Origin: Crocinitomicaceae bacterium
GTDB taxonomy: Bacteria; Bacteroidota; Bacteroidia; Flavobacteriales_D; Sanyastnellaceae
DNA: 64,000 nt
Reading direction: 5' to 3'
Assembly (NCBI GenBank): GCA_002690915.1
Contig: NZGF01000004.1
Span: forward strand, 1-64,000
Of this stretch, positions 2,818 through 19,222 are shown piece after piece. Numbering within the stretch: position 1 is the first letter of the stretch; the number at the start of each line of letters is the position of its first letter. Made by a program: the position numbers and the translations under genes. Below the pieces are notes generated by a model. The model was not told where the DNA came from. It made no database searches and saw only the letters and a program-made list of their open reading frames with translations.

Positions 2818-5800
2818 GTCCAATGCGTCTGGCGTCCTGCGTAGTCTGGTCCAACTACCTCATACAAACCAGGTGACCAACCCTTGACGACCACTTCAGT
2901 TGAAACGTAGCCGGCACGCTGCTCCCAAACGAGCTTACCGCTCGCAACTTGGTAAATCCGCAACGTCGCTCCGGGCATCCAACCGTTCACTACAACGCTC
3001 TCGCTCGCAGGGTTGGGGAAACCCGTTACTGAAGATGTGCTTACCTCGTCAACCGATTCTCCAGTAGCGATGTCGTACAAAATGATATCATCAACAGCCG
3101 CCTCGACCAGGGAGCCGCCGTCGAGGTACTCCCCGAGTGTCGTGCTGTCCGATGCAATGAAACGCATCTGAAATTCGCTTGTGGGCTCGATGACGTCAGC
3201 TATGCGGAAAGCGTTGCGACGCCACGATATGTCCTGCTGCAACGTATTTTCGAGGAACTGCCAGTTAGCACCACCATCGTTTGAGACTTCAACCTGCCAC
3301 CAGTCAGAAGCAGGGTTGGCACCAGATGGCGGAGCATTCACAAACCATCGCCAATATGCCATCACAGGATTCTCATAAGGTGTCAGGTCTATAATTGGTG
3401 AAAGCAGGGTGGTTCTGCCGGCATCAACATCATTCGCTCCAATTCCGTCATTCACTCCAGGGTTTTGTCCCGTGATAAACGCGTAACCAGCCATGCCTAG
3501 GGTGTGGTCCTGTGTTGGTGCTACTACCGTGCTGGGATCATTGGCTTCCGCGTACGACCCTACTGGGATGGCCTCTTCCCAAATTCCTGTAGTCGCATTA
3601 TCTTGACCGGGCAGTCCCGTGGTCCAACTTCCGAAATCGGAATATTCATCCGAATCGTTAATGAGCGCAGGCTCAACGCCAACAAGCAAATTGAAAGGAA
3701 GGTTGGGATACGTCGCGTTTGCAGCAGCAAATGGAGTGACTGCAGACAGTCCGCCGAATTCGTCCGAAATGCCCATGTAGTAGGAAATAACCGTGCCCGG
3801 CTCCTGTGCCGGTATTTCAGCTGTAAAGACCGCATTCCCATCGGGATTGTCCATGGCTACTTGCGTCCATTCAGCACCTGATTCAGTGCGGTACCACATG
3901 TTCACCGCTTCGAAGTAAAGGTTGTATGGGAACACAATGAACGTCTCTGCTTCAATCTCAATGGTTGAAGCGGCCTCAACAAATTCCTCAGAATCGTGGT
4001 CGATTTCGGCATAGCTGAAAATCGAAATGCCATGGATATCGAAGCCCTCGACGATGGCGAGGTCGTTCGGGGTTCCGTTGGACAAATCACCGTCGTCATC
4101 ATCTGCCTGTAAGACGTCGAGCAAAACGTCAGTATAGGCTTGCCCTTCACTACCGTTCGGGGTTGTGGCTTGCAAACCCGGGTATGCATCCATGAACAAG
4201 GCCATGGTAGCATCCCAGTCGCCTCCCATCAATAGATGCGTGTCGTACCAGGCTCCGCAAATGATTTCACCGTCGGCATGAACTTCGCCAACCAAATCCT
4301 CCGGATATACCTTGGGGTCTTCATCGTAAACACGGATACCGTCTTCACTGTCCGTGTAAAATCCTTTGCCTATCTCGGCAATGTCACCCAAGCTCATGGC
4401 CCACAAATCCGCGTAGCCTTCATTCATCGCGCCATTGTTGAAGTTGGCGTTGAGGCTGTTGTAGAAATACCCATTAATTCCATGACCGTATTCGTGCCAC
4501 ACCACATCGGCAATCAATGACGTCGCATTGCAGCCGCCGCCAACATCGTAAAAATTAATGCTTTGGCCGTCGTAGAAAGCATTGCATTCGCCGGCAATGT
4601 CAATGTTCGTCGGCAAGGACCAATCCAAGTCTGTGAAATTTGGCATCAAGGCCTTCATGTGATCATGGATGAGAATGGTCGAGCGGTATGCCGAACGCTC
4701 TTTCAAGTTGCCCAAGTTGGACAAATCAAGTGTGTTGTATCCGTCATTAAAATCAACGGCCGTGCTGGGTGTATTGCCATTTGTATAAATGGTACTCCAA
4801 TAGCCCGTGAGGTCAACGTTCACGGTTTGGGGACCTACTGCCGTGGTGATAAAACCACCATCCGCATCGGTGTGCACAGTTTGCCCTGGAAACGGCAGTT
4901 CCAGTGCTGGCAAGCTCAAAGAAACAGCATCTTGGTAGGGATACAATTCATGAACGTCGGAGGTGATGACACCGCTAATGACCAGCGGTGGCATTGCACT
5001 CGGCAGGTCGATGCCCATGCGCAACACAGCGCGCTCTGGCTTTCCGTTCATGGAGGGCATGCCCCATTTTCCGTCGATGTGCATGACTTGGTTTTGACGC
5101 CAAACCAATTCCCCCGTTTGGACATCGACACCGGTTTCGTAGCGTCGGGGAATGGTACCCTGACGACCTGCCACTGTCCACGTTCGGGTCAAGTGCCATA
5201 CCAAATTTTGTGCCTGACCTCGGGTCGGCACCCATGCTAAATCTCCCATCTCAACCTCGCCCCACTCGTCAAACACAACGCCTGCAGTTGCCGCTTCCTG
5301 CTGAGCCGTTAGGGACAGAATTTCGGAGGCATCCTCAGGAATACCCTGATACCAATCCGCACCCCACATGATTAACTGATCGTTCCACCATTTTGTCACG
5401 AGTTTACCCCCTTTGACGGAAATGCCTTGCCATGTCTGTTCGGCATGGGCCCAGGTGTGCTGTCCCATCTTGGACTCGATGTCCCAAACCATTGGAGCGT
5501 CAATGCCGAAGCCGACCAGTTCCTCAGCGGCGAAGGTAAAAGCCTTGTCCGCGATGGTCAGTCCCGGGACATCGATTGCAGGACCGAAAGCCCGGTGAGG
5601 AAGGCCCGTAGCTTCGCTCATTACGCATCTCCAATTGGCATGATTGGAGGCCCAGTTATTCCATTCGGATGTCTCGCGCAGCATCCGCTGCTCTTCCGGT
5701 TCTGGATCATCGTTCAAAGGCGCCATGCGCACCTCGAGGGGATCGATTACAACACCGATGTCATAAAGCGCTTCGGTCTGGGCACTTGCCGCAAAGGCCA

Positions 5801-12388: not shown

Positions 12389-13543
12389 TTACAAGTTTTG
12401 GTAACGCAGGGTGATGCCGCGTCCGTATGCAGCTTTGGATCCCCATCCGAATGGATCTTCTAAAAACAGCATCAAAGCATGCTCTCCCGGCTTTTTCCAA
12501 CGTGCCCACGCAGCGGGACGAGGCCGGCCCCAGCCGCCGACTACTATCTGAATGCCTGCTTGCCATTGCTTACCAATGGCACGTCGGTAGCCGGCAATCG
12601 CTCGAGGGGTGGGCATCCAATCACCCACCTGCACCTGAACATCCCAACCTGAACGCGGACCGAGGGGGTACTCAAACGACGCATCGATCCGGAAGGGCAT
12701 CATGTCGAGCCGGAACCGTTGGTTCGACTCGGAGATAACCTCCGATACGCCCTCCGATTGCATGAGGGATTCTACGGATAGCCCCGGCCCCGTCCAAGTG
12801 AGGCCGGTTGTCTCCACCAACGTGTCCACATGCAATTCTGTCCAATCCGGTGCAACAACAAACCCAAAGTTGTTCAAGCGCAGGTGGAACGCAAAAGGTG
12901 CTTCTTCACGCAAAAAGTGCCACTCGGCATTGGTTACCAAGCCCCACGAGCCGACTTCAGACGATCCAATATGGCCGCGCAAGTAACCGGTCATATAATC
13001 CAGGCCTTCACTCACGTAAAAATATCCGTTGCGTATCAAGGCTTCCATCGATTGCGTGCGGTGAACCAATCCCAACTCGATTCGGTTTTGATTTGCGCCT
13101 TCCAATCCAACGGCCACTTGGATCCATGTGGACATGCGCATCCGTGAACCGTCCAACACATCCCATCGGCCCAAGTGCCCTGAATTGCCACTAAGCACCA
13201 AGTCAAACAATTCTGGGGTCCAGCGAAAGTCGCCTAAGGTTTTGAGTTGCAAAGAGCCACACAGCCTCGCCTCCTTATCTCGCCATGGACGCAGGCTGGA
13301 CCAATTGATGGCCAAACCAGAGGTGTAACCAAATGCACCCATCTCCCCGCCCTGTGCCTCTTGGGCGGAATCGACCAGAGACCGGTCAATGTGCCCGCCA
13401 CGAAAGAGCAACCGGCCCAACTCGTGCGAGAGAGCATTGGAGCGGTACTGGCCCCAAGCGGTTGCGTTCCAAGTCAGGGAGTCCAATTGCCCTTGGACCG
13501 CAGAAGCCAACACCAAAAACATGTATGCCATCCAAATCCTCAT
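12389..13543 (-). CDS. Predicted outer-membrane beta-barrel protein
   Basis: 384 residues. The ATG at 13543 forms an ATGA overlap with the stop of the preceding gene and begins a clean signal peptide (MRIWMAYMFLVLASAVQGQ). The rest alternates polar and aromatic or hydrophobic residues (for example GSLQLKTLGDF, WIQVAVGLEG, IELGLVHRT, FAFHLRLNNFGF) and ends in an aromatic-rich GRGITLRYQNL, which suits a barrel with a C-terminal strand. It resembles the broad DUF5723-type outer-membrane proteins of Bacteroidota, but I cannot confirm the family. It lies between a lipoprotein and kdsA in the same operon. Confidence 0.62.
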   Translation of the reverse strand: MRIWMAYMFLVLASAVQGQLDSLTWNATAWGQYRSNALSHELGRLLFRGGHIDRSLVDSAQEAQGGEMGAFGYTSGLAINWSSLRPWRDKEARLCGSLQLKTLGDFRWTPELFDLVLSGNSGHLGRWDVLDGSRMRMSTWIQVAVGLEGANQNRIELGLVHRTQSMEALIRNGYFYVSEGLDYMTGYLRGHIGSSEVGSWGLVTNAEWHFLREEAPFAFHLRLNNFGFVVAPDWTELHVDTLVETTGLTWTGPGLSVESLMQSEGVSEVISESNQRFRLDMMPFRIDASFEYPLGPRSGWDVQVQVGDWMPTPRAIAGYRRAIGKQWQAGIQIVVGGWGRPRPAAWARWKKPGEHALMLFLEDPFGWGSKAAYGRGITLRYQNL

Positions 13544-15084
13544 CGCACACTTACTTGGTATGTTCCTTGGCACGCGACTTGCAAACGAACACGTTCCATT
13601 CCAGAAAATTGCACAGGGCCATCCGAAGTCATGGCTGCTTCAATCGTCAACGTGCCCGGCGAAGCCAAGCGGGCTTCACCAATGGGAATACGCACCTCAG
13701 TCACCTCTGCCGTTGGAAAGGCAGCTGCCTCTGCCGTGAACACCTCAGCGCCAAGCTCCAAATCCTCATAGTCCCAGGTGCCCGTCACATTCCAATGAAC
13801 CGGGTAACCGTTGGTAAACCGCAGAATGAGTTCGCCGTTGAACCCGGCCAAATCGGTTCCTTCAAATGCTATCGAACGGACGATACGAAATCCTTCGATG
13901 ACTCCTTCCAATGGCCATTCAAAGTCAAGGTAAAGTTGCGGAGGATGCTGAATATTGAAATAGTCCTGTCCACCTGAAACGTCGCCTAGCGGATTCAATA
14001 AAGCCTCACCACTCGTAGTGACGACCTCCGGCAAATACCCTAAAAGGTCAAACAAAGAAGGAGCGGTTTCGAGCAAGTCCATTTCCCACAGGGTCGGTTG
14101 CACCTCATCCCCGCTCCAATCCGCGCGTGTGATCTGCTGGGGTATGCCGAGGATAGGATGACTGACGGCGATACCATCTACCGACAGGGCATCCAATTGC
14201 AACTGCAAATCAGCGGCAACGGTATTGCGAAATTGGAGTTTGGCACGCGTTGGCTGGACCTGCAAAAACCCACTGGTGAAGTCAGAGGGTTGGAATACAT
14301 TCTGATCCACCCCAAATGCTAAGACCTCTTGGCCAAAGTACCCCGCAACTTGCTCCACAAACATGTCCTGGAAGTGCATCGCCACCCGGATGCTATCGGT
14401 GCCGAATACCTGGGCGGTATCCGGAATTTCGTCTGGGGTGCCGATGATCAAGTGGCTCGCAATACGGTTGATTTCATTACCGGAGACTCCAGTCAAGTCA
14501 ATCACTGCCCCGGCGAGGTCAATGGAGCCCGATTCCGTCTGAAAGGTCACTCCATCACTCGGGGGCAAAACAACTTTTAATTCCAAAGCTTCGCCGCCGA
14601 TGGTCACACTGGGAAATGCGTATTGAAACTCTACATACCCGTTGGTAGAACTTTCAACGAAGTAATCGATGCGCCCAGTAGACAGCACGAGGCCAGAGAA
14701 TTGTTGATCGATTCCTTGAAAAACAATGTCCTCCTCGGAATCCAACAACACCGCACCTGGGGGAACGGGAAAGGGTCCACCAGTGAAATCGGGCGTGAGC
14801 TCTTGGGTAACAATGGTGTCGGGCAGTTCGGAAAGGGAGGGAATTTCCCAATCCGCAATCGGCCCTTCGAATCGCAAGACCGCTGGCATCCCCTCAACAA
14901 CGTCGATGCTGCCGCTTTCAGACGCCCCCTCGATGACGTCGACCCAACTCCAACCATCATCGATGAGCGGCAAAGCAACATCAACTGTCCAGGTCGTCGA
15001 CTCCCGTTTGCAGCCGAATGCGAGCATGGCAAGAACAAGGACCAAAAGTCCCCGTTGCAAGTGGAGTGTGTCGAGGCATTTCAT
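13540..15084 (-). CDS. Hypothetical lipoprotein, 514 residues
   Basis: The ATG at 15084 overlaps the preceding stop as ATGA and starts a lipoprotein signal (MKCLDTLHLQ, hydrophobic run, lipobox LAFGC). An upstream start at 15156 would lie inside the previous gene and hide the signal. The mature protein is rich in beta-strand patterns and acidic residues with no catalytic motif that I recognise. It includes stretches such as YVEFQYAFPSVTIGGEALELKVVLP and a C-terminal WNVTGTWDYEDLELG. It overlaps the barrel gene by four bases, which suggests the lipoprotein and barrel are made together and may act together at the outer membrane. Confidence 0.6.
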   Translation of the reverse strand: MKCLDTLHLQRGLLVLVLAMLAFGCKRESTTWTVDVALPLIDDGWSWVDVIEGASESGSIDVVEGMPAVLRFEGPIADWEIPSLSELPDTIVTQELTPDFTGGPFPVPPGAVLLDSEEDIVFQGIDQQFSGLVLSTGRIDYFVESSTNGYVEFQYAFPSVTIGGEALELKVVLPPSDGVTFQTESGSIDLAGAVIDLTGVSGNEINRIASHLIIGTPDEIPDTAQVFGTDSIRVAMHFQDMFVEQVAGYFGQEVLAFGVDQNVFQPSDFTSGFLQVQPTRAKLQFRNTVAADLQLQLDALSVDGIAVSHPILGIPQQITRADWSGDEVQPTLWEMDLLETAPSLFDLLGYLPEVVTTSGEALLNPLGDVSGGQDYFNIQHPPQLYLDFEWPLEGVIEGFRIVRSIAFEGTDLAGFNGELILRFTNGYPVHWNVTGTWDYEDLELGAEVFTAEAAAFPTAEVTEVRIPIGEARLASPGTLTIEAAMTSDGPVQFSGMERVRLQVACQGTYQVSVR

Positions 15085-17102
15085 GGCTCTTGTTTCGCTG
15101 CATCCGAAAGGGACCAAGGCACCTTCCAAGGATCCAGACTCAACCAAACGGCCCATCCTAACAACATCATGGACGAAGGGACGAATTGGGGCACGAAATT
15201 AAACAGCAACAAAAAACCAACGACACCCATTGATAAAATCCATCGGAGCCAATTGTACATCGCTCCATCTCCCAATGCCCATAGCAAGGGAAGGAAAGGC
15301 GAAGCCCATAGTAAGTTCCAATTGCCCCACGTATCGCGATGGTCAGTTAACGCCCACATTGCAAGCAATAACACCCCGAGCAATCCGGCCAGAGCCAAAA
15401 CAGCCTTTTCCGCGCGAGATTGCATGGGAAGAACTGTTCGCCCCGCACGGTGCCGCATCAACCTTCGTAGGGTTCCGACAAACGACCAGGCGAGGATAAG
15501 CGCACACCACACGACAGGATGAGCCAGTACAGGAGTATAGACAGTCCGAAACCAAGATCTTTGCGGAGGCAACAATTCTGTTGGTGGTCCTGCGAGAAAT
15601 CGGCCATCCAAGGTGGCGCTTTGCAATTGCTGCATCAATCCGTCAGGGAGGAAACTCGAGCCGCATGGCGGCATGAGCCGGTCAGCTCGTGGACCAAGAA
15701 TGAAGTCAATTCCCGTTTCAATCCATGCGTCTCCCTGGATGTAAGGCCGCAACGCATCGCGGTAGGTTACGCCGAGCGCAGCATCATTCTCACAGCCGCT
15801 GTCCCAACGGTCACCAAATACCTGTTCCATGACGGTCAGCAAACGCGAGGAACAATTATCCTCAAAAAACTTGTACGCATACACGCGGTTTTCAGGTAAG
15901 TAGTTCCATTCGAGGTAAGCCACTACTGCCTTGGCATCTTCCGCCGTCAATGCAAGCGGTTGTTCTAAAATGGCCCGTTCGGAATGCATGTATTCCCTTT
16001 GAAGGGAGGAAAAAGGCGCCTTGGCCAACCGGTAGCTCAATTCACCGCGCATAAACCGCATATAAAATCCTTCCCCGAATTCGAACGTGCCATAATTGTA
16101 GGTCCAGTCCACAGGTGGCGTTTGGCCGGGATCGAACACCCGAATGGCGGTATGTCCCCATGCGCTATATAAATCTGGCCCTGGCGAACCTGTGAGAACA
16201 GACAGCTCCACTTCATCCGTCCACCCGGATTGTGCTTCTGCTATTGGCATCCATCCCATCCAGAGTGCTGCGGTCAACGCCGTCCACTTCAAGCCGTTCC
16301 ATGTGGCATGGAGCACCTTATTCGCGGCACCATAAAGCCAAATGTTATGGAATATCCCCGTGGCTTCGTCGGGTTCATTGAGCTCTACGCGCAGCGTACC
16401 ACCCGGCATCTGCACTTCACGTTGTAACGGACCACCACGTTCTGCATAATCCGCAACCGCCGCAGCGACCGCTCCTGTTCCACACGCCCTTGTCTCGCTC
16501 TCCACCCCACGCTCGTAAGTTCGCATGGCCAGTGCTGCTTCGTCGAGTCGTTGAACGAAGTCCACATTCGTGCCATCCGGCGCGTAATCAGATCCGTAGC
16601 GAATTGTTCGGCCAATACCTTCTACATCTTGAACGCCTGCGTGGCTCACCCAAATTAAATGGTGGGGGGAACCCGTGTCCACAAATGTGGCTCCATCGCT
16701 TGCGGCCACAGGAGGCGCAATGGGCAGCAATTCAACTCCCGGTTCGCCTTGGTTGTCATCCCATGCTACCTCATGGCGACCATCGCAGGCTTGCAATTGG
16801 CCGCCCGAAGCGGGCATCCAACACCGCTCCCTCAAAAACGCAAAAAGAGCGCGGCTGCCATTGCCACAAAAAGACCTTGAGCCATCCGCATTGACGTAAT
16901 CCATTTCCCAATCGGAGCAAGGCAATGCACCTGTTATGTTGTGCAAGGGCCGAAAAAAAATGAGGCCGTCTGCCCCCAATCCGTTCGAGGCATCACACAT
17001 GGCCGCAATTATCGCAGCATCGGGCAATGCAGGCCACTCCCTTCGATCCATCAGAATGAAGGTATTTCCTGTTCCCTCCCATTTCCACGCATTGATGAGC
17101 AT
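15081..17102 (-). CDS. In-frame fusion: diaminopimelate epimerase (DapF) plus Lnb-like membrane domain
   Basis: 673 residues from the ATG at 17102; the frame also opens 21 codons earlier but DapF homologs begin at MLINAWKW. Residues 1-270 are a complete DapF (EC 5.1.1.7): GTGNTF, FCGNGSRA with Cys79, SETRACGTGA with Cys207 (the two catalytic Cys), ending IWLYGAANKVLHA. Residues 271-291 form a hydrophobic segment ending IAEAQ, like a signal peptide. Residues 295-500 resemble DUF4105/Lnb N-terminal periplasmic domains (SAWGHTAIRVF, YNYGTFEF, FFEDNCSSR). About four to five transmembrane helices follow. Lnb proteins are reported to N-acylate lipoproteins in Bacteroides. The frame has no stop between the parts. 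It is first gene of the envelope operon. Confidence 0.8.
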   Translation of the reverse strand: MLINAWKWEGTGNTFILMDRREWPALPDAAIIAAMCDASNGLGADGLIFFRPLHNITGALPCSDWEMDYVNADGSRSFCGNGSRALFAFLRERCWMPASGGQLQACDGRHEVAWDDNQGEPGVELLPIAPPVAASDGATFVDTGSPHHLIWVSHAGVQDVEGIGRTIRYGSDYAPDGTNVDFVQRLDEAALAMRTYERGVESETRACGTGAVAAAVADYAERGGPLQREVQMPGGTLRVELNEPDEATGIFHNIWLYGAANKVLHATWNGLKWTALTAALWMGWMPIAEAQSGWTDEVELSVLTGSPGPDLYSAWGHTAIRVFDPGQTPPVDWTYNYGTFEFGEGFYMRFMRGELSYRLAKAPFSSLQREYMHSERAILEQPLALTAEDAKAVVAYLEWNYLPENRVYAYKFFEDNCSSRLLTVMEQVFGDRWDSGCENDAALGVTYRDALRPYIQGDAWIETGIDFILGPRADRLMPPCGSSFLPDGLMQQLQSATLDGRFLAGPPTELLPPQRSWFRTVYTPVLAHPVVWCALILAWSFVGTLRRLMRHRAGRTVLPMQSRAEKAVLALAGLLGVLLLAMWALTDHRDTWGNWNLLWASPFLPLLWALGDGAMYNWLRWILSMGVVGFLLLFNFVPQFVPSSMMLLGWAVWLSLDPWKVPWSLSDAAKQEP

Positions 17103-17155: not shown

Positions 17156-19222
17156 ATGAACGCATCCACCTCTTTAGAAACCGGCGTCAAAGCATTGCTT
17201 GAAGCCTTTCGCACCATGAGCACTGCACGTGCCATGAGTGACCTCTTCGAGGAACATGCGCGGTTGACCTCAAAATACGTTCACGCCTGCTCGCGAGGGC
17301 ACGAGGCAATCCAGTGGGCCACCGGGCGGATGCTCGAGCACCAGGACTACCTCAGCGCCTACTACCGAGACGACTGCTTGCTGCTGAGTCTAGGCATGAA
17401 GCCAGAAGAGTTGATGCTTCAGCTGCTTGCCAAAGGCGACGACCCCTTTAGCGGCGGCCGCACCTATTATAGTCATCCGTCGCTTAACCAAGAGGGGCTA
17501 CCTCGCATTCCTCATCAGAGCAGTGCCACAGGTATGCAAGCCATCCCAGCAGCGGGTATTGCGATGGGCCTCCAATACAAAGAGCTTCTGGGTATTCCTC
17601 AAGACCGAGAAGGAGCGCCACCGGTTGTTGTATGTTCCATTGGCGATGCAGCCATCACCGAGGGAGAGGTCAGCGAGGCGCTGCACATGAGTGACTTGCG
17701 TGAACTGCCCATCATCTGGCTGGTTCAAGACAACGAATGGGACATTTCGGCGCATGCTTCAGAAATACGTTCTCACGATGCTTCCACCTTGGCCAAGGCA
17801 TTTCCGCTAATCAAGGCTATGGAGATTGATGGTGCCGACGCCGAGGCAAGCATGAATGCCTTGCTTGAAGCGTTCAAATACGTCCGAACCAAGCGTAAGC
17901 CGATACTTATACATGCCCACGTGCCGCTGCTAGGCCACCACACCAGCGGCGTTCGAAAAGAGTGGTACCGGGACGACTTGGAAGAACACGAAAAGCGCGA
18001 TCCACTCGTTGCCTTGCGGAAACGGTTGCAGAAACTTGGCATCGCAAGCGAAGCCTTGGACACTATTCACTCGGAGGTGACTGCAGAGGTCGAGGCCGCG
18101 TTTGAACGGGCGCAAAGCCATGATGAACCAGATCCTGCAACGTTAGCTCAGCATGCCTTGGCACCGGCTTCAATTACGGAAGAGGAAGGCACTCGCGAAG
18201 GCACCGATGACGAGCCCACCTTGATGGTGGATTGTGCCTTGCACGCTATGCAAGAAATCTTGGCTGCCCACCCCGAAGCCCTGTTGTATGGTCAGGACGT
18301 AGGCGGACGATTGGGCGGCGTTTTTCGAGAAGCCGCAACACTCGCAGAGAAATTCGGAGACCAACGCGTCTTCAACACCCCCATCCAAGAAGCCTTCATC
18401 ATTGGTTCCACAGCTGGTATGTCAGCCGCAGGACTGCGGCCGATTGTAGAGGTGCAATTCGCTGACTATCTCTGGCCCGGCCTGAATCAACTTTTCACCG
18501 AACTCAGCCGAAGCTACTTCCTGTCAAACGGTCAGTGGCCTATTCACAGCTTGATTCGTGTCCCCATTGGTGCCTATGGTTCCGGGGGGCCCTACCACAG
18601 TTCGAGCATTGAATCGGTCTTGGCGAATATCCGGGGCATCAAGGTGGTCTATCCGTCCAATGGCGCAGACTTAAAAGGCCTGCTCAAATCCGCCTTTTAT
18701 GATCCGAATCCGGTCGTTGTGCTGGAGCACAAAGGGCTCTATTGGTCGAAAATTCCAGGAACAGAAGCCGCCAAAGTCATCGAACCGGATGCGGCTTATC
18801 GCGTGCCCATTGGGAAAGGGCGCATGGTGACCGAGATACAGACCGGTAAGGAAAGTGCATGTACCATCATCACCTATGGACGGGGAGTGTACTGGTCACA
18901 GGCCGCAGCCGCGGAATTTGAGGGTCAGGTGGAGATTTTAGATTTGCGCACCATAAGCCCTGTGGATTTTGAATTGATTGCCGAACGGATCACGTGCACA
19001 CACCGCGCTTTGATCGTCACAGAAGAACCCGTCAACAATGGGTTTGCCCAGGCACTGGCCGGTCGCATCGGCTCTGAACTCTTTGCGGAACTCGACGCAC
19101 CCGTACTCGTCGTGGGCTCCATGGAGACCCCCGCCATTCCTTTAAATGAGAACTTGGAGCGTTTCGTACTTGTGAATGAATCGAAGGTGCGAACTGCCCT
19201 GTTGCAAACATTGGACTATTGA
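17156..19222 (+). CDS. One-piece 2-oxoacid dehydrogenase E1 (alpha and beta fused)
   Basis: 688 residues. Residues 1-330 are the E1 alpha half with the thiamine-diphosphate motif GDAAITEGEV ... VQDN near residues 163-193. Residues 345-688 are the beta half (YGQDVGGRLGGVFREA, FNTPIQEAFIIGSTAGMSAAGLRPIVEVQFADY, the transketolase pyrimidine domain, and the C-terminal transketolase domain). The enzyme decarboxylates a 2-oxoacid and passes the acyl group to lipoyl E2. Fused E1 of this size is common in Bacteroidota and is usually assigned to branched-chain 2-oxoacids, although pyruvate cannot be excluded. It is divergent from the DapF-Lnb operon with a 53-bp gap, and its stop overlaps the next start. 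Confidence 0.87.
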   Translation: MNASTSLETGVKALLEAFRTMSTARAMSDLFEEHARLTSKYVHACSRGHEAIQWATGRMLEHQDYLSAYYRDDCLLLSLGMKPEELMLQLLAKGDDPFSGGRTYYSHPSLNQEGLPRIPHQSSATGMQAIPAAGIAMGLQYKELLGIPQDREGAPPVVVCSIGDAAITEGEVSEALHMSDLRELPIIWLVQDNEWDISAHASEIRSHDASTLAKAFPLIKAMEIDGADAEASMNALLEAFKYVRTKRKPILIHAHVPLLGHHTSGVRKEWYRDDLEEHEKRDPLVALRKRLQKLGIASEALDTIHSEVTAEVEAAFERAQSHDEPDPATLAQHALAPASITEEEGTREGTDDEPTLMVDCALHAMQEILAAHPEALLYGQDVGGRLGGVFREAATLAEKFGDQRVFNTPIQEAFIIGSTAGMSAAGLRPIVEVQFADYLWPGLNQLFTELSRSYFLSNGQWPIHSLIRVPIGAYGSGGPYHSSSIESVLANIRGIKVVYPSNGADLKGLLKSAFYDPNPVVVLEHKGLYWSKIPGTEAAKVIEPDAAYRVPIGKGRMVTEIQTGKESACTIITYGRGVYWSQAAAAEFEGQVEILDLRTISPVDFELIAERITCTHRALIVTEEPVNNGFAQALAGRIGSELFAELDAPVLVVGSMETPAIPLNENLERFVLVNESKVRTALLQTLDY

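Follow-up and report, generated by a model that had tools for sequence, protein, structure and literature searches.

Bradyrhizobium fbcH, which encodes cytochrome b and c1, is a prokaryotic polyprotein cut by signal peptidase, and its parts belong to one complex. The dapF-lnb gene described here would likewise give rise to two proteins through a signal sequence lying inside a single frame, although DapF and Lnb are unrelated enzymes, one cytoplasmic and one of the membrane. Described diaminopimelate epimerases (DapF; TIGR00652; PDB 4ijz, 1gqz and 9mro) are soluble dimers whose interface is formed mainly by strand β16 (PMC5296763), here taken to be the C-terminal strand. Lnb belongs to DUF4105, which carries the His/Cys motif of a permuted NlpC/P60 enzyme and has been placed beside TseH in that group (PMC12994826); Lnb/DUF4105 is described as a lipoprotein N-acyltransferase (Armbruster et al. 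2024, cited in PMC12994826). The other Lnb proteins in our comparison stand alone (~390 aa) and have an N-terminal signal peptide, whereas the signal of the fusion lies within the chain, behind DapF. A model for a bifunctional DapF/glutamate racemase (NF038284) also exists, but the second activity differs and the present protein scores 100 against its cut-off of 350. The DapF-Lnb fusion was not found in the papers searched.

The window, a stretch of 64,000 nucleotides from a Crocinitomicaceae bacterium genome (GCA_002690915.1, contig NZGF01000004.1), carries the gene on the minus strand as a single frame of 673 codons plus TGA (15081–17102), uninterrupted by any stop. The ATG at 17102 is the likelier start because a gene begun at the other in-frame ATG (17165) would run into the divergent neighbour, whose own start lies at 17156. 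This neighbour (17156–19222, plus strand) codes for a 2-oxoacid dehydrogenase E1 component of 688 aa, with alpha and beta parts in a single chain, and begins 53 nt from the dapF start. The fusion frame encodes, in order, a complete DapF, the Lnb signal helix (reached without a linker), the Lnb periplasmic domain and a five-helix domain. No second DapF or Lnb was found in the window genome, a draft of 84 contigs that is 85% complete.

The DapF domain (residues 1–269; 16296–17102, minus strand) shares with characterised family members the full-length fold, both catalytic cysteines and an equivalog score (TIGR00652, 161 bits; cut-off 114.65). It also exceeds the gathering score of Pfam DAP_epimerase (E 2e-27) and matches PDB DapF structures at the sequence level, whilst the AF2 model has the two-domain DapF fold, with 5ha4 as the best Foldseek match (E 5e-22, TM 0.78 by target). 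C79 (in FCGNG) and C207 (in ACGTG) are invariant across 21 aligned fused proteins. The DapF half is predicted to be an active epimerase, which would form meso-DAP from LL-DAP.

The mature Lnb part (residues 291–673; 15084–16232, minus strand) contains both Pfam domains of the family, namely Lnb_N (PF13387, residues 296–430; 15813–16217, minus strand; E 2e-20, 73.4 bits against a gathering score of 22.2) and the five-helix membrane domain 5TMH_Lnb (PF25221, residues 528–654; 15141–15521, minus strand; E 3e-8, 34.4 bits against 25.2). The permuted NlpC/P60 pair, H317 and C417 of Lnb_N, is invariant in the 21 aligned fused proteins, as is the histidine of the TDHxDT motif. Modelled alone by AF2 (pLDDT 93.7), the Lnb half has TseH (6v98) as its best PDB fold match (a weak E of 0.027, probability 1.00), in agreement with the placement of DUF4105 beside TseH (PMC12994826); a PDB sequence search with the same half as query gave no match. 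Together with the signal-like helix, these are the features shared with Lnb/DUF4105. The fusion also matches the Lnb model NF051878 (E 3e-47 over 306–669 of the longer frame) but falls short of its equivalog cut-off (161 against 550 bits), so that the annotated Lnb activity is inferred. This cut-off appears narrow, since a Parabacteroides Lnb (398 bits) misses it too. No Lnt match was found in the window genome (85% complete), which makes the Lnb part the only N-acyltransferase of known type detected there. Lipoprotein N-acylation is the putative activity of the Lnb half.

A second difference from the family lies in the LTCSPG motif, in which Cys326 is present in 45/45 split Lnb proteins and in 0/39 fused ones; the fused clade has also lost Pro493 and gained conserved residues of its own. 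These changes, together with the reduced NF051878 score, would fit an Lnb-like half that has given up N-acyltransfer for another substrate or function, the fusion then marking a new role. We regard this as quite improbable: the His/Cys pair and the TDHxDT histidine are invariant, the gene is under purifying selection and Lnt was not matched in the window genome. Loss of the LTC cysteine carries no statistical weight because the change sits on one branch, and it is unlikely to signify loss of catalysis, as the Parabacteroides Lnb lacks this cysteine as well. Separately, Cys458 and Cys501 (numbering of the 694-aa frame) were gained and fixed in g20, the sister group of the fused clade, and in the fused clade itself, and possibly form a changed disulfide. 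Cys494 of the Lnb half (P0001) was lost in the same two groups.

The sequence-only reading of the window had described a DapF with both catalytic cysteines joined in frame to a DUF4105/Lnb-like domain, had named a sequencing error or lost stop codon as the main alternative, and had proposed a search of relatives, in which two separate genes with a stop at the join would have told against the fusion. Both domain identifications are borne out by TIGR00652, the Pfam matches, the invariant cysteines and the His/Cys pair, and the in-frame join by the 673-codon frame and its relatives. Matches were obtained in 21 of the 22 genomes searched in the window genus, and the genes are fused wherever a contig spans the join; none of the matching genomes has split genes, the broken cases being contig ends. 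The same fusion occurs in three more genera, so that all 40 resolvable loci (g1, g14, g18 and g21) are joined in frame, and split genes were seen only outside the fused clade.

An error of sequencing or assembly, or a chance stop loss in one strain, might be entertained for a draft genome, but we consider it almost certainly wrong. The region 16270–16330 contains neither a stop nor a frame change, and the fused loci come from separate assemblies, with identities to the window protein down to about 36% (the nine matching contigs with record titles are all MAGs). In close pairs, pN/pS is 0.20 for dapF, 0.23 for lnb and, at a fairly similar level, 0.35 for the junction, which indicates that purifying selection spans the junction, and the other two frames contain stops in 39/40 and 33/40 loci. 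The in-frame join in 40 loci, the selection and the stops in the other frames of most loci together exclude error or chance, and these comparisons confirm the DapF-Lnb fusion as genuine. As judged from the loci compared, it is retained by all of the roughly 40 species of one Flavobacteriales branch.

On the trees of both halves a single change of state suffices, the fused clade having SH-aLRT values of 99 (Lnb) and 92 (DapF) and the split g20 as its sister in each case; multiple independent fusions were rejected on this basis. The phylogenies indicate that dapF and lnb fused once, and reversal was never seen. Outside the family, no Lnb frame of more than 600 aa was found in samples of 219 genomes from the order and 148 from the phylum. 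Long frames in G088, G087 and other g20 members were examined as candidates and dismissed as chance open frames upstream of lnb, with dapF in another frame. In g20, dapF and lnb are two genes that in most cases share 4 nt (GTGA), and a 4-nt stop/start overlap of the form GTGA or ATGA is found in most other adjacent split pairs too. The overlapping pairs (g20, g12, g13, g3, g8 and g9) have the same order, strand and downstream lipoprotein gene as the fusion, but comprise two frames, the dapF stop overlapping the lnb start, where the fusion has one. The single origin, the overlap in the sister group and the lack of fusions in the other sampled Lnb genomes suggest that a translationally coupled pair lost its frame break. 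In the ancestor, the two genes would have been operon neighbours, with an ATGA or GTGA overlap that placed the lnb start within the stop codon of dapF, until a frame change in the common ancestor of the four genera joined them in frame. The origin can thus be traced to an overlapping operon pair, and the locus offers a natural test of the passage from overlap to fusion.

Comparison with the split genes suggests how the junction arose. In g20, DapF ends in ...AWLSGPVEMPFSGTILPS followed by its stop, and Lnb begins VKEFWI...AG↓Q (the arrow marks the predicted cut); in the window protein the junction reads ...IWLYGAANKVLHATWNGLKWTALTAALWMGWMPIAEA↓QSGW, the last DapF strand being followed by the former signal peptide. 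AF2 predicts strand 260–269 abutting helix 270–284 (16251–16295, minus strand), a putative internal signal or anchor equivalent to the signal peptide of the split relatives. The window protein has an n-region, a hydrophobic core and an A-x-A↓Q motif, as expected of a substrate of signal peptidase I under the Bacteroidota Q-rule, according to which Q follows the cleavage site (PMC5837995). The earlier suggestion that signal peptidase might cut at IAEAQ (16244–16230) holds up as a predicted site, the likely cut being A290↓Q291 (codons at 16230–16235, minus strand). AF2 confidence falls at 284–292 (pLDDT below 50), which fits an exposed, flexible cut site. The hydrophobic core is present in all fused loci, and a scan by a simple rule rather than a trained predictor found small-x-small↓Q in 23/40 of them (against 12/12 in g20) and another A-x-A-like site, not a Q-site, in 14 of 40; in several species (L007, L010, L085 and L087) the A-x-A↓Q motif is unclear. 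As the retained core and motif show, the Lnb signal peptide has survived inside the fusion.

These observations support a polyprotein-like arrangement, which we consider probable. Translation of dapF-lnb would give one chain whose DapF part folds in the cytoplasm, whilst the former signal peptide, right behind the last DapF β-strand, would act as an internal signal-anchor (N-in), taking the Lnb part to the Sec translocon for co-translational insertion. Signal peptidase I would then cut A-x-A↓Q at A290↓Q291, releasing a DapF that carries a transmembrane tail at its C terminus and the mature five-helix Lnb in a 1:1 ratio. Owing to the N-in topology, DapF would lie in the cytoplasm and Lnb in the periplasm, each as needed. 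The single translation product, its cleavage, the anchoring of DapF and both enzyme activities are read from sequence features and models. One gene would thus unite cytoplasmic supply of a peptidoglycan and lysine precursor with lipoprotein maturation on the periplasmic side. It also offers a natural test of whether signal peptidase works on a signal inside a chain, and of whether the Q-rule extends to inner-membrane proteins, a point that PMC5837995 describes as untested.

The proposal that the fusion tethers DapF to Lnb stands as regards the fusion itself; a permanent tether is less likely than release, because most of the clade has retained a site resembling A-x-A↓Q. In an uncleaved bifunctional membrane protein, DapF would stay attached to Lnb, with helix 270–284 as a permanent anchor in a protein of six transmembrane segments. 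The continuous frame, the direct join and the few species with no clear A-x-A↓Q are compatible with this reading, which we nevertheless hold to be unlikely, as most members retain a site resembling that of signal peptidase, frequently with Q at +1, and the low AF2 confidence around it fits an exposed, flexible segment. An altered environment of DapF is also suggested by the residue equivalent to E. coli Tyr268 (structure of the Y268A mutant, PDB 4ik0), which corresponds in the alignment to the F/Y position of the VFxG motif. The aromatic is kept in 15/40 fused loci against 36/37 split DapF proteins; on the tree it is lost in 24/39 fused loci against 1/37 split, with at least five changes within the fused clade and one outside it. 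This pattern indicates repeated loss, after fusion, of an aromatic from the dimer strand. The fused DapF thus departs from the known soluble dimers in a C-terminal strand that runs into a membrane helix, often without this aromatic, and offers a natural test of whether DapF can work with such a dimer strand. Tentatively, and with considerable doubt, the polyprotein-like arrangement may be extended to a two-compartment system in which the formerly soluble dimer is membrane-tailed, membrane confinement partly replaces the dimer strand, and lipoprotein maturation at the inner membrane is coupled 1:1 with the synthesis of DAP.

Two products might instead arise from the open frame, a read-through DapF-Lnb and a separate Lnb made from an internal start. 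Just ahead of the helix, the window has an in-frame GTG (16314–16316, minus strand) and an in-frame TTG (16290–16292, minus strand), the latter a possible separate Lnb start (MKWTALTAALWMGWMPIAEA↓Q), and g21 mostly keeps an ATG 4–7 codons ahead of the hydrophobic core. Neither window codon is conserved, however, and the fused clade has no conserved start-codon column. In at least 7/40 loci (L012, L014, L015, L016, L018, L080 and L084) there is no ATG, GTG or TTG within 18 codons before the core, so that no Lnb with a proper signal peptide could be started on its own there. The g21 ATG may simply encode a DapF residue, since it lies inside the conserved DapF end (VWLSGKASEM..RG). As a general account this is very unlikely, although a minor separate Lnb product is possible in loci with internal starts.

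Downstream, a putative lipoprotein gene with an LAFGC lipobox (13540–15084, minus strand) shares 4 nt (ATGA) with the lnb stop. Its product of about 514 aa has no Pfam match, a homologue follows lnb at nearly every family locus checked, and it may act as a partner of Lnb or serve as a preferred substrate. In g4, g10, g15, g16 and g17, dapF and lnb are separated by a gene for a sugar-kinase-like ATPase of the BadF/BcrA type (in L104 at 3530–4372, minus strand; the g4 copy, at 31.0 against 31.5, is just under the Pfam cut-off), and this gene is absent where dapF and lnb overlap or are fused. For annotation, dapF-lnb genes may carry the DapF name alone, with Lnb hidden. Additionally, the scan of the order returned two Lnb genes, G203:C9:56948-57376 and G193:C207:6289-6717, with 3 and 7 in-frame TGA codons, respectively, which may represent TGA-recoded contigs or contaminants.
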